Shown here one piece after another: positions 2,279-8,261 of a stretch of DNA of 24,331 nt. Origin of the DNA: a virus; IMG/VR virus record IMGVR_UViG_3300047444_000343, positions 1 through 24,331 of that record, one strand, 5' to 3'. The notes below the pieces were generated by a model. It was given only the letters and a program-made list of their open reading frames with translations, was not told the DNA's origin and did not search any database. Each line of letters begins with the position of its first letter. The stretch's first letter is position 1. Both the position numbers and the translations under genes were made by a program.

Positions 2279-2535
2279 TGACTAGAACACAACGACCACG
2301 ACCACGGCGAAGGACGAGCGTCTTGACTGGTTCCTTCGGCAGTCGTGAATGCTTCGCCACTGAGGAAGACTGGCAGGAGTACCAGGATGTGCTAGCCCGT
2401 CTGCAGATGATCGCACTGGGACATGTGATGGATGGGGAGGAGAGACGGCCGGCACAAGGGTTTCGGATGACTCCGGCACACCAGCCAAACAAGCGCAAAA
2501 GAGCATTTGAGCGACAGGCAAAGGAGACAGCATGA
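2278..2535 (+). CDS. Small basic protein of unknown function
   Basis: 85 residues, starting inside the stop of the nuclease gene (TGATG). It begins with an Arg/Pro-rich stretch (TRTQRPRPRRRTSV), has an acidic helical middle (ATEEDWQEYQDVLARLQMIALG), and ends with a Lys/Arg-rich tail closing in ETA. I do not recognise it. Its last codons and stop coincide with the first copy of the 19-bp repeat that bounds the methyltransferase gene. Confidence 0.55.
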   Translation: MTRTQRPRPRRRTSVLTGSFGSRECFATEEDWQEYQDVLARLQMIALGHVMDGEERRPAQGFRMTPAHQPNKRKRAFERQAKETA

Positions 2536-2540
2536 ACAGT
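2522..2540 (+). repeat. 19-bp direct repeat, copy 1, at methyltransferase start
   Basis: AGGAGACAGCATGAACAGT occurs here and again, exactly, at 3610-3628. It contains the ribosome binding site, the end of the upstream gene (ETA-stop) and the start (MNS) of the next one. The match stops at both edges. Confidence 0.9.
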
Positions 2541-3623
2541 GATCTGCCGGTGGACCAGATCATCCAGGGGGATGCGCTCCGTGTGCTGCGGTCCTTGCCG
2601 CATGAGAGTGTGCAGACGGTCGTGACGAGCCCCCCTTACTGGAACCTACGCGACTATGGTGCGCCGGGTCAGTACGGCTTGGAGAAGACGCTCGATGAGT
2701 ACCTGCATACGATGGTCGCCGTCTTCGAGGAGGTGCGGCGCGTCCTCCGGAGCGATGGCACCCTGTGGCTGAATTTGGGAGATTCCTATGCTGGTAGCTG
2801 GGGCGCTCAAGGGCGTAAAGACTCCGACGTGATGTATTCACCGGTGTCTCGATCTGAGATCGAGACACACCCACACCGAGGACACAACACAGGTAGCCTC
2901 AGATCCACTCCTGGGTTGAAGTCAAAAGATCTGATGGGGATTCCGTGGCGAATTGCCTTTGCGCTCCAGGCAGATGGCTGGTATCTGCGCTCAGACATCA
3001 TCTGGCACAAATCGAACCCTATGCCGGAGAGCGTGCAGGATCGGCCTACGAAGGCGCATGAGTATCTGTTCCTGCTCTCGAAGTCGGAGCGGTACTTCTA
3101 CGATGCAGCTGCAATCAGGGAGCCGGCACGCGATCTGAGTCGCTACACCAAGATGCCGGATGGTTGGGACACAGGCGCTGGTGCTCATGGATCATTCCAC
3201 CGAAACGGCCGCGAGAAAGGCGCCCGCGTTGCTTATCAACGCGGGCATAGTCGGAGGCATGCTGGATTTAATGACCGATGGGATCTCATGGACCGCTCTG
3301 AGCAGATGGCTCATGGAGCTAATAAGCGCTCAGTCTGGACAGTAGCAACCCATCCTTTCCCAGAGGCGCACTTCGCCACCTTCCCGCCGGCGTTGGTCGA
3401 GCCGTGTATCCTGGCTGGCTGTCCTGCTGGTGGCATCGTGCTTGACCCATTTGGTGGTAGCGGCACCGTCGGTGTGGTGGCCAGAACTCACAGCCGGCAC
3501 TACCTCCTCATCGAGCTCAACCCCAGTTACTGCGAGATGGCAGAGCAACGCATTCTCCGAGAGTCCGCACAGCCGGTGCTCTGGAGTGCGCCAGTAGAAC
3601 CCACACAAGAGGAGACAGCATGA
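2532..3623 (+). CDS. DNA methyltransferase, beta class (N4-cytosine or N6-adenine)
   Basis: 363 residues. It transfers methyl groups from S-adenosylmethionine to exocyclic amino groups in DNA. The catalytic motif IV appears first, as VVTSPPYWNLRDYG (SPPY at 33-36), and the AdoMet-binding motif I comes late, as DPFGGSGT (305-312), the order that defines the beta class. The stretch WRIAFALQADGWYLRSDIIW and the following KSNPMPESVQDRPTKAHEYLFLLSK are typical of phage and type II enzymes of this group. No restriction enzyme is adjacent, so it is probably an orphan enzyme protecting phage DNA or affecting regulation. The start overlaps the previous stop by four bases. The target site cannot be read from sequence. 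The gene sits exactly between two 19-bp direct repeats. Confidence 0.92.
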   Translation: MNSDLPVDQIIQGDALRVLRSLPHESVQTVVTSPPYWNLRDYGAPGQYGLEKTLDEYLHTMVAVFEEVRRVLRSDGTLWLNLGDSYAGSWGAQGRKDSDVMYSPVSRSEIETHPHRGHNTGSLRSTPGLKSKDLMGIPWRIAFALQADGWYLRSDIIWHKSNPMPESVQDRPTKAHEYLFLLSKSERYFYDAAAIREPARDLSRYTKMPDGWDTGAGAHGSFHRNGREKGARVAYQRGHSRRHAGFNDRWDLMDRSEQMAHGANKRSVWTVATHPFPEAHFATFPPALVEPCILAGCPAGGIVLDPFGGSGTVGVVARTHSRHYLLIELNPSYCEMAEQRILRESAQPVLWSAPVEPTQEETA

Positions 3624-5390: not shown

Positions 5391-5602
5391 TGGTCTCTCT
5401 ATAAAAGGTGGTTACAGTGATGATGATGATTACAGTGATTACGATGGTTACACTGATTACACTCCGTTTGAATTGCCGAGTGTAATCAGTTGGTAGGAAG
5501 TGTAACTGTCTAGATGATTGGTAACACTCCTGAATTTCCCCGAACTGTAATCAGTGTCACCGTTTTTGGATGCGTGCGCGCACGCGCGCGAGGAGAAAAT
5601 AC
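5391..5602. repeat. Iteron-like repeat region, candidate origin or operator array
   Basis: Gene-free stretch of 212 bases after the helicase gene. Copies in + orientation: GGTTACAGTGAT (5410-5421), GATTACAGTGAT (5428-5439), GGTTACACTGAT (5446-5457) and GATTACACT (5455-5463). Copies in opposite orientation: AGTGTAATCAGT (5479-5490), AGTGTAACTGT (5499-5509) and ACTGTAATCAGT (5544-5555). The first three forward copies start 18 bases apart. Arms 5452-5464 and 5478-5490 form a perfect 13-bp inverted repeat with a 13-base loop. No T-run follows, so it is not an ordinary terminator. Iterons for replication initiation, or clustered repressor sites, both fit. Confidence 0.65.
5571..5590. other. Alternating purine-pyrimidine tract
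   Basis: TGCGTGCGCGCACGCGCGCG is a nearly perfect alternating purine-pyrimidine run with a central TGCGCGCA palindrome, a sequence type that can adopt Z-DNA under negative supercoiling. It separates the repeat array from the AGGAG ribosome binding site of the next gene. Confidence 0.5.
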
Positions 5603-5783: not shown

Positions 5784-6089
5784 ATGGCTAGCATCGTGGA
5801 TGAGTTCGATGGTGATACCCAGGATCGGCTGTATATGCTCCTGTGGGACATGAAGGTCGGCGAACGCAGTGACTGGTTCCTGCCGGCAGAGAACCACATT
5901 GCGCGGCAAACGTGCTCCGCATTTCTCATCGCCGAGCAGCAGTTCGGGAAGTGGAAGGAGCAGCTCGCCGACCTCCTGGTGGATCTCAAGGTCGAAAGCA
6001 TGCTGCCCTTCAGTCGCGTCGATAGCCCAGGCGACTTCTGGATGGTCAACTACGGCAAGTATCGCCGATGGGGAGAAACAGCCGCATGA
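5784..6089 (+). CDS. Small acidic protein of unknown function
   Basis: 101 residues, five bases after the zinc protein stop; a GGTGGGGG purine run (5769-5776) precedes the start at a suitable distance. Segments LYMLLWDMKVGERSDWFLPAENHIARQTCSAFLIAEQQFGKWKEQLADLL suggest a mixed alpha/beta globular domain without known catalytic motifs. It ends with VNYGKYRRWGETAA. Its stop overlaps the next start by four bases. I do not recognise it. Confidence 0.6.
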   Translation: MASIVDEFDGDTQDRLYMLLWDMKVGERSDWFLPAENHIARQTCSAFLIAEQQFGKWKEQLADLLVDLKVESMLPFSRVDSPGDFWMVNYGKYRRWGETAA

Positions 6090-6322
6090 GCAAAGGCAAG
6101 AATCGCAAACCAAAGGCTGGCGAGTGGAGCAAATACGACATGAATGGCAGAATCATCGCGCTCCCTGCTGCCTGCGATCATTTCTGGCAACCTGGCGCAC
6201 TCGCCGATGGGTGGGAGAAATGTTGTCTCTGCGATGCCGTCAGACGCTACGTGCCTCCCTCACCACCAACATCGTATAGCCAAGGTGGCCCACCCCCGAA
6301 GAAGACGCTGACAGAAAAGTGA
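6086..6322 (+). CDS. Small putative zinc-ribbon protein
   Basis: 78 residues from ATG 6086. The frame is open from 6068, but the ATGA overlap with the preceding gene and the GGGGAGA at 6069-6075 favour the internal start. A basic leader (MSKGKNRKPKAGEW) precedes ACDHFWQPGALADGWEKCCLCDAVRR, where one Cys, one His and a C-x2-C pair could hold a zinc ion. The tail is proline-rich (YVPPSPPTSYSQGGPPPKK). It is the last gene before the non-coding boundary region. Function unknown. Confidence 0.6.
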   Translation: MSKGKNRKPKAGEWSKYDMNGRIIALPAACDHFWQPGALADGWEKCCLCDAVRRYVPPSPPTSYSQGGPPPKKTLTEK

Positions 6323-6613
6323 CAAAACTGTGACTCTGTGTACGAATGGACCGTCTAAGCATGCGTAATCGTACGCAAAAGTGGACAGTTGCAGTCTGTC
6401 TGATATACAAGACAGTACTGCATGGAGACAGCACCCACTTGTGCTAAGAAGCATTAGCACAAGTCCATTACGTGACATACATTGGCGGTGAGAAGGCGAC
6501 CTTCTCACAAGTCGCGGACGTTTGTCCGAGTTGCGGACAATTGCACATAGTTCCACCAATCGGCATTGGTGGTAGTTCATTTTCGGCAGTTTTCGATCAA
6601 AGGTTCTATACGG
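6323..6613. other. Stem-loop cluster before terminase, candidate packaging site
   Basis: About 290 bases without a convincing gene. Stem A: TGCGTA/TACGCA at 6362-6367 and 6372-6377. Stem B: 6390-6401 with 6410-6422, 12 bp and one bulged T. Stem C: ACTTGTGCTAA (6437-6447) with TTAGCACAAGT (6454-6464), perfect, 6-base loop. Stem D: GTGAGAAGG (6488-6496) with CCTTCTCAC (6500-6508), perfect, 3-base loop. Stem E: CGGAC at 6515-6519 or 6534-6538 can pair with GTCCG at 6524-6528, so two exclusive pairings exist. Stem F: CCACCAAT (6553-6560) with ATTGGTGG (6565-6572). No T-run follows any. The position just upstream of small terminase is where cos and pac sites usually lie. Confidence 0.55.
6382..6409 (+). 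promoter_or_regulatory. Possible sigma70-type promoter for the late genes
   Basis: TGGACA (6382-6387) is separated by 16 bases from TATACA (6404-6409), which is preceded by TG with one base between (extended -10). The -10 element lies in the loop and right arm of stem B. The match to TTGACA/TATAAT is moderate (5/6 and 4/6), and host promoter preferences are unknown. Confidence 0.35.
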
Positions 6614-7018
6614 ATGGCAGCTCCGAGCAAGTACACCAAAGCCACTCTCAAGGTTATTGAGCAAGCATTATCTGCTGGTTGCTACCACAAGCTCGCTGCC
6701 CACGCCGCCGGAATCTCTGAGACCACCTGGTGCGAATGGATCAATACTAAGCCGGGATTTGCGGAACTGGTAGAAAAAGCCGAAGCCAAAGCCAGTCAAC
6801 GCTGGCTCGCGCTGATCGAACGGGCCGCCGAAGATGGCAACTGGCAAGCAGCGGCGTGGAAGCTCGAACGCCGGTATCCCGATTTCTACGGTCAACCCAA
6901 AGTGAGACACGAGGTCACTGGTCCCAATGGCGGTAACATCCCCGTCGAGTTCATTGCCCGCACTGCAATTGCCGAAGTTGCGGCCGGATCAATTGCGGAT
7001 AGCCGAAGCGCTGAATGA
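6614..7018 (+). CDS. Terminase small subunit
   Basis: 134 residues. It recognises phage DNA for packaging and hands it to the large subunit. The N-terminal half holds a helix-turn-helix (CYHKLAAHAAGISETTWCEWI), then helices with KAEAKASQRWLALIERAAEDGNWQAAAWKLERRYPDFYG, a pattern typical of HTH-type small terminases. A VTGPNGGNIP segment follows, as in relatives. The frame extends up to a TTG at 6566, but ATG 6614 is preferred, with AAAGG (6599-6603) ten bases upstream and the family start matching. The last 92 bases overlap the large terminase gene in another frame. Confidence 0.85.
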   Translation: MAAPSKYTKATLKVIEQALSAGCYHKLAAHAAGISETTWCEWINTKPGFAELVEKAEAKASQRWLALIERAAEDGNWQAAAWKLERRYPDFYGQPKVRHEVTGPNGGNIPVEFIARTAIAEVAAGSIADSRSAE

Positions 7019-8261
7019 CGCCGACACCGTCTGCCTCGCCATGGGCCGACGCTGGGGCAAGTCGACGCTGGGCCTCGTGCTCGAGGCGACCTTTGCCGCA
7101 CGGGGTGGACGCTGCGCCTGGATCGTGCCGACCTACAAGAACGGCTATCCGCTCTGGTCGATGCTGAAGAACGCGTTCGCCGAGTTGCGGTCGATCGAGG
7201 CGGTCAGGATCTGGGAGAATGACCGACGCCTCGAAGTCGATCCTCGGCATGGCGGCGGCTACATCGGCATGTATACCGGTGAGGACGATTGCGCCAGTAT
7301 TCGCGGGGACGCCTTCGATCTGGCGATTGTGGATGAGGCGGCGAAGGTCACGGAGACGGCGGTGTATGACGCGATACTGCCGACGCTGGCTGACCGCTCC
7401 GGCAAGCTGATGCCGATCTCCACACCGTGGGGGCGGAACTGGTTCTGGCGGATGTGGCAAGTCGGCCAGGATGAGGCACAACGCGAGATCCGGAGCTTTA
7501 CCGCTCCCAGTTCGGCCAACCCGATGCCGCAGATTCGACGAGCCTACCACCTGGCGAAAGAGCAAGTCTCGGAACGGACGTTTCGTCAGGAGTGGGACGC
7601 TGAGTTTGTGGATGATAGCGGTGGCGTGTTTCGTAACGTCCGGATGTGTCATGCCGGCTCACTCGAGGACGCACCAGCCAACTGGGGCAGGCAGTACGTC
7701 GTTGGCGTGGACCTGGCGAAGATGGAAGACTACACCGTCTGCATCGTCGCCGACCTGAAAGAGCAGCGCATCGTCGCGATGGATCGGTTCAACCGTGCCT
7801 CCTGGCCGTTGCAGAAAGAGCGCATTGCCCGGTTAGCGCAGGACTGGAACAACGCACAAGTGATCCTGGATGCCACTGGTCTGGGTGACCCGATCTATGA
7901 CGACTTGCAGCGTGGTGGCCTGAACGTGCTGCCGTACAAGCTCACGCATGCGACGAAAAGCGCGCTGATCGACAATGCGGTGCTGATGGTGGAGCAGCAG
8001 CAAGTGCATTTTCCGGCCAGCCTGACGACGCTCACGAATGAGCTGGAGAGCTACGAGTACGAACGCACGCCAGCGGGAGTCATCCGGATGAATGCGCCGC
8101 AAGGCATGCACGACGACTGTGTGATTGCCTTCGCGTTGGCCTGCTGGGGGCTCGGACATGGCGGCTCGGTCAGGATCGCGCAGGCGGTGATCGAGCAACT
8201 GAGAGCGAAGCCGGAAGACAGGCCGTTCGGTGGGGTGTCGCTGATGAAGAGATCGCTGTAA
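6927..8261 (+). CDS. terL: Terminase large subunit (ATPase and nuclease)
   Basis: 444 residues; the DNA packaging motor and the nuclease that cuts concatemers. Walker A is GRRWGKST (40-47), Walker B is LAIVDEA with Asp136 and Glu137, and the coupling motif is ISTPWG (164-169). The RNase H-like nuclease domain has acidic residues Asp262 (VVGVDLAK), Asp315 (VILDATGLG) and Asp396 (MHDDCVIAF). Length is usual. ATG 6927 lies 92 bases inside the small subunit gene and has no strong binding site. Conserved LRPDQLRIAEAL, beginning about residue 18, still falls within the overlap, so at least part of the overlap is real. Downstream starts cannot be excluded. Confidence 0.95.
   Translation: MAVTSPSSSLPALQLPKLRPDQLRIAEALNDADTVCLAMGRRWGKSTLGLVLEATFAARGGRCAWIVPTYKNGYPLWSMLKNAFAELRSIEAVRIWENDRRLEVDPRHGGGYIGMYTGEDDCASIRGDAFDLAIVDEAAKVTETAVYDAILPTLADRSGKLMPISTPWGRNWFWRMWQVGQDEAQREIRSFTAPSSANPMPQIRRAYHLAKEQVSERTFRQEWDAEFVDDSGGVFRNVRMCHAGSLEDAPANWGRQYVVGVDLAKMEDYTVCIVADLKEQRIVAMDRFNRASWPLQKERIARLAQDWNNAQVILDATGLGDPIYDDLQRGGLNVLPYKLTHATKSALIDNAVLMVEQQQVHFPASLTTLTNELESYEYERTPAGVIRMNAPQGMHDDCVIAFALACWGLGHGGSVRIAQAVIEQLRAKPEDRPFGGVSLMKRSL

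Follow-up and report, generated by a model that had tools for sequence, protein, structure and literature searches.

A hairpin cluster upstream of the small terminase gene of an uncultured phage and its counterparts in a minority of relatives

Introduction

To our knowledge, the way in which a small terminase locates its own genome is well understood in a few phages only. Packaging sites (cos or pac) are usually located directly upstream of terS, the small terminase gene. In lambda and HK97, the cos sites hold this position, are sequence-specific and are conserved within groups. A different picture comes from the Bacillus phages SPP1 and SF6, in which the DNA-binding domain of TerS binds pac without sequence specificity and bent DNA is selected; it has been proposed that DNA shape matters more for recognition than sequence does, and in SPP1 the pac site extends across the terS start (PMC4737164). 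Phage DNA can also act through a hairpin or cruciform, e.g. at the target of the diversity-generating retroelement (DGR) of BPP-1, where the stem works by structure and its sequence can vary (PMC3240598).

The locus described here, a cluster of hairpins directly before a terS gene, shares its position with the cos sites of lambda and HK97 and its terS-start location with the pac of SPP1 and SF6, and it shares with the BPP-1 element a phage DNA hairpin of variable sequence. Unlike the cos sites, however, it has no conserved sequence, and unlike SPP1 pac, which has direct repeats, it consists of hairpins that are not conserved. The BPP-1 element comprises one hairpin next to a variable repeat and is accompanied by a reverse transcriptase, whereas no DGR parts (reverse transcriptase, template or variable repeats) were recognised among the annotated genes of the DNA studied here and of the contig that contains it. 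Another comparison is offered by the Rickettsia palindromic elements, palindromic repeats inserted in-frame in genes. Hairpin-forming inserts that preserve the coding frame are found here as well, but the copies of the Rickettsia elements share sequence, whereas each of our hairpins is unique and bound to one genomic position. In the literature on hairpin packaging sites and on palindromic inserts in phage genes, we found no description of such a pattern.

Results

The window analysed here is the full 24,331-nt stretch of IMGVR_UViG_3300047444_000343 (positions 1-24,331), which belongs to an uncultured tailed phage, probably a temperate one. It is base-for-base identical to part of a 44,853-bp IMG/VR contig, IMGVR_UViG_3300046817_000553, whose two ends, at window coordinates -959 and 43893, share exactly 127 bases. 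Because this overlap resembles a common assembler k-mer, we took the genome as circular and complete; the sequence suggests a circle of 44,726 bp. On the plus strand lie terS (6614-7018), of the phrog_4102 type (profile match, E 2.6e-24), and the large terminase gene terL (6927-8261), which matches the Terminase_6 family. The window also encodes an N6/N4 methyltransferase (2532-3623), a Mu-type portal, head and tail proteins, a DnaB-like helicase and a RecT-like protein, and the contig adds a tyrosine integrase and an HNH-helicase beyond the window. The closest terL relatives, at no more than about 50% identity, come from phages in metagenomes and from prophage-like contigs, many of which belong to Chloroflexi MAGs. 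Among 400 genomes of a single bacterial phylum (labelled Chloroflexi), 15 gave matches to the TerS profile, 17 in all and mostly weak.

A stretch of 291 bases (6323-6613) in which no gene was recognised separates a small ORF (6068-6322) from terS and constitutes a candidate cis region. Within it, at 6362-6572, where a preliminary description of this DNA had noticed five to six stem-loops, six hairpins form a cluster that ends 42 bp before terS. Hairpin 1 (6362-6377; TGCGTA-ATCG-TACGCA) has a 6-bp stem and a loop of 4 bases. Hairpin 2 (6390-6422; TGCAGT+CTGTCT / AGACAG+T+ACTGCA) pairs 12 bp as 6+6 around a loop of 8, with one bulged T, and is therefore not the perfect 12-bp stem it might have been taken for; the other stem lengths reported previously (6, 11, 9, 5 and 8 bp) were reproduced. 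Hairpin 3 (6437-6464; ACTTGTGCTAA-GAAGCA-TTAGCACAAGT) has 11 bp and a loop of 6, hairpin 4 (6488-6508; GTGAGAAGG-CGA-CCTTCTCAC) 9 bp and a loop of 3, and hairpin 6 (6553-6572; CCACCAAT-CGGC-ATTGGTGG) 8 bp and a loop of 4. Hairpin 5 (6515-6540) can indeed adopt two mutually exclusive forms, one of 5 bp at 6515-6528 (CGGAC-GTTT-GTCCG) and one of 7 bp at 6522-6540 (TTGTCCG-AGTTG-CGGACAA). All stems consist of Watson-Crick pairs only, and the six have no sequence in common with one another.

The cluster is genuine, and it is unusual. In 2000 dinucleotide shuffles, perfect stems of 6 bp or more summed to 2.9 bp on average and never to more than 25, whereas the 211 bases of the cluster hold 47 bp of them. 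When only stems of at least 7 bp are counted, the cluster scores 35, and 21 was the best score of any 211-bp stretch after the 24 kb window had been shuffled 30 times. The folding z-scores of 6320-6620 are -5.5 with RNA parameters and -5.9 with DNA parameters. When the whole 44.7 kb genome was scanned, no second cluster was found. A blastn search of 50,697 phage records returned no similar DNA, and the sole nucleotide-level relative of the cluster region is 100% identical to it. Two further features of the preliminary description also held: the DNA contains no convincing gene, none of the three small ORFs crossing it having a match in a family search, and no T-runs of the strong terminator type follow the stems, a permissive scan of 1.7 kb giving 2 sites where 1.5 were expected. 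A search of Rfam with the cluster yielded no match at the gathering threshold; the only hit, at E 3, is attributable to chance.

We gathered related loci by TerL, TerS and methyltransferase profiles, the main set being 73 non-redundant loci with a phrog_4102-type terS, the window excluded. Perfect hairpins were defined by a stem of at least 9 bp and a loop of 3-8 bases, and expected counts were obtained by random rotation of each locus. Hairpin density in the three 250-bp bins before terS was 0.88, 0.66 and 0.35 per kb, compared with mostly 0 to 0.2 per kb elsewhere between -4 kb and +4 kb, and the remaining DNA of these loci was near background. Between -750 and -100 there were 31 hairpins in 19 loci (expected 5.3 in 4.4), and after removal of terminator-like hairpins 23 in 15 loci (expected 3.8 in 3.1), a number reached in 0 of 10,000 permutations. 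Affected loci carry one to four hairpins each, whose sequences are unrelated between phages. The hairpin-rich stretch before terS has counterparts in a minority of relatives. Clusters of at least two hairpins occur in seven loci, the window included, the others being L209 (stems of 10, 11, 10 and 10 bp), L219 (13 and 11 bp, and also 12 bp with a loop of 9 bases), L019 (11, 10 and 10 bp), L033 (11 and 14 bp), L271 (18 and 13 bp) and L241 (12 and 11 bp).

This concentration does not appear to be a property of all terminase loci, since 163 TerL relatives without a phrog_4102-type terS showed a weak effect (15 hairpins upstream versus 9.6, P 0.07). As the -750 to -100 interval had been chosen on the first set, 22 new loci found with a second TerS profile provide a fairer test. 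In these, 4 hairpins fell in the interval versus 1.4 expected (P 0.07), in 4 loci versus 1.2 (P 0.023), with no clusters; the out-of-sample trend is weak, pointing in the same direction without fully keeping its strength. Inspection of the contig table revealed no clear pile-up of physical contig ends before terS.

The DNA that hosts the relatives' hairpins encodes N6/N4 methyltransferases, a C5 methyltransferase (L219) or Mom (L209 and L239), or is non-coding, and methyltransferase genes initially showed an 8.6-fold hairpin excess. Where a modification gene lies directly upstream of a phrog_4102-type terS, hairpins are present in 10 of 26 genes and number 18 in 26.5 kb (P 2e-7 versus controls). 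The controls, 79 genes for methyltransferases of the same family, were collected regardless of terS, had no phrog_4102-type terS detected nearby and contained 0 hairpins in 93.6 kb; the host methyltransferase genes examined had no such hairpins either. Both results rule out that the hairpins are a property of methyltransferase genes, i.e. that they simply accompany such genes. An exception to the rule of position is the window itself, whose methyltransferase gene contains a perfect 11-bp hairpin (2844-2868) and a perfect 10-bp hairpin (3222-3246) at 3.4-3.7 kb from terS. Perfect hairpins of 10-18 bp within modification-gene reading frames, often in variable inserts, were seen in the window and, in other loci, at L019:4296-4432, L033:475-580, L209:1831-2005, L219:3668-3757 and L271:3391-3558.

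Comparisons of close relatives reveal rapid turnover. Loci L240 and L241 encode an identical TerS and are ~97% identical in DNA from terS to -545, yet L241 has a 101-bp segment with two hairpins where L240 carries ~224 bp of other sequence. Similarly, the hairpin-bearing inserts of the L019 methyltransferase are missing from L029, and in the comparison of L023 with L025 a hairpin lies just beyond the point where identity drops. Gains relative to relatives are in-frame or segmental. Only a minority of family members have hairpins, and these are scattered on the TerS tree, on which, for 13 rows, the hairpin label requires 13 changes; well-supported branches force at least 6 of these. This scatter and the difference between L240 and L241 indicate that the hairpins are gained and lost often and are not obligatory in the packaging machinery of the family.

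The stems themselves bear on whether they act as DNA or as RNA. An RNA structure under selection is expected to tolerate G.U pairs and to include decayed stems. One-mismatch stems are only slightly in excess (19 in the 50 kb before terS versus 89 in 329 kb elsewhere), and both G.T and A.C mismatches are rare in stems before terS, with 5 of each. The hardly enriched imperfect stems and the lack of preference for G.U argue against RNA structure, the G.U test being negative for the relatives' hairpins. Chance hairpins should drop ~fourfold in number with each added base pair, whereas stem lengths in the relatives peak at 10-11 bp, in a count that includes some terminator-like hairpins. Restriction to perfect stems together with this peak favours a DNA-level element that is either young or kept perfect.

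Discussion

Our preferred reading, which we hold tentatively and at somewhat less than even confidence, is that the cluster consists of recent, fast-turnover hairpins that act at the DNA level and can form cruciforms, in a permissive stretch upstream of terS where packaging most likely starts. As the hairpins are concentrated upstream of terS, we infer from their position that they are linked to the packaging region. Two routes could produce such a link. Local extrusion or bending of the DNA may benefit the terminase, with no particular sequence needed; the shape-based recognition of the SF6/SPP1 pac (PMC4737164) and the structure-dependent stem of BPP-1 (PMC3240598) are precedents. Alternatively, ends made by packaging cuts may fold back, be copied and leave scars. 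Repeated fold-back copying would fit the CGGAC/GTCCG/CGGAC triplet at 6515-6538, which is only suggestive. Under either route the cluster is not a cos/pac site of the obligatory, sequence-specific kind, although the hairpins may take a direct part in loading the terminase. We consider it unlikely, on a broader reading, that phages with a phrog_4102-type TerS mark the packaging start by clusters of perfect hairpins of ~10-14 bp, extruded as cruciforms and arbitrary in sequence, such that structure would specify initiation and even coding sequence would be free to change.

The main rival explanation holds that the region before terS is a hot spot of recombination and gene exchange (methyltransferases, Mom, small ORFs), in which the hairpins, unrelated to packaging, would travel as neutral or selfish hitch-hikers with newly acquired DNA. 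It is a possibility to be taken seriously, if a doubtful one: the hairpins do lie within replaced or inserted segments, and fast turnover, scatter on the tree and unrelated sequences all agree with it. However, the related phage methyltransferase genes sampled elsewhere and the host ones examined are free of hairpins, and outside the region before terS these loci stay near background. If the hairpins are scars or selfish inserts, they would mark a hot spot of phage genome breakage and rejoining. If instead our preferred reading of DNA-level hairpins tied to the packaging region is true, hairpins fixed in position and free in sequence would be a structural signature of that region, visible in raw metagenomes, and would offer a direct test of whether terminases read DNA shape.

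The preliminary description had offered either a packaging site or an RNA switch for the late operon, and of the two the switch is the less likely. More generally, a structured RNA leader in the transcript upstream of terS (a switch, a put-type antiterminator or a processing signal) would account for the very low folding energy, for a cluster that precedes the operon and for the mutually exclusive hairpins at 6515-6540, but DNA parameters give much the same z-score, the stems are all Watson-Crick, and the relatives' hairpins show no tolerance of G.U, often lie inside coding genes, are unrelated in sequence and lack a conserved architecture. With no Rfam match in addition, we regard such a leader as quite improbable. 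As for the packaging site, what stands of that proposal is the link with the packaging region, by position; an obligatory cos/pac sequence does not, being absent from most relatives. A true site at which the hairpins are a required recognition element for the phrog_4102-type TerS would lie directly upstream of terS, as the cluster does, and would agree with an enrichment specific to this TerS type, yet such a site should be conserved among phages with the same terminase, and L240 lacks the hairpins that L241 has; it is very improbable. Transcription terminators or attenuators ending the early operon are the least credible explanation of all. Among the relatives' hairpins before terS there are clear terminators (those of L031, L136 and the L256 type), but no T-runs follow the hairpins of the window, and the enrichment in relatives persists once terminator-like hairpins are removed.

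Other repeats

Several other repeats were seen in the same DNA or in related loci. Just after the gene for the DnaB-like helicase, 9-bp repeats (GATTACAGT-like) occur in both orientations in an array at 5400-5561 of the window, a candidate origin or operator, which includes a 13-bp perfect inverted repeat at 5452-5490. In TerL relatives of 46% identity, dense TTGTTGCGC repeats in both orientations occur directly before terS (L003:1610-1780, L004:4490-4690 and L006:42-69) and are a candidate terminase-binding or regulatory array. The arrays of L003 and L004 were rejected as homologues of the window's cluster, as they repeat one motif, unlike the hairpins of the window. Finally, a recurring hairpin, GGGGCGTAT...ATACGCCCC, was observed in contigs of Chloroflexi MAGs (L133:8170, L135:3542, L149:6597 and L156:6532) and is apparently a small dispersed palindromic repeat of Chloroflexi hosts.
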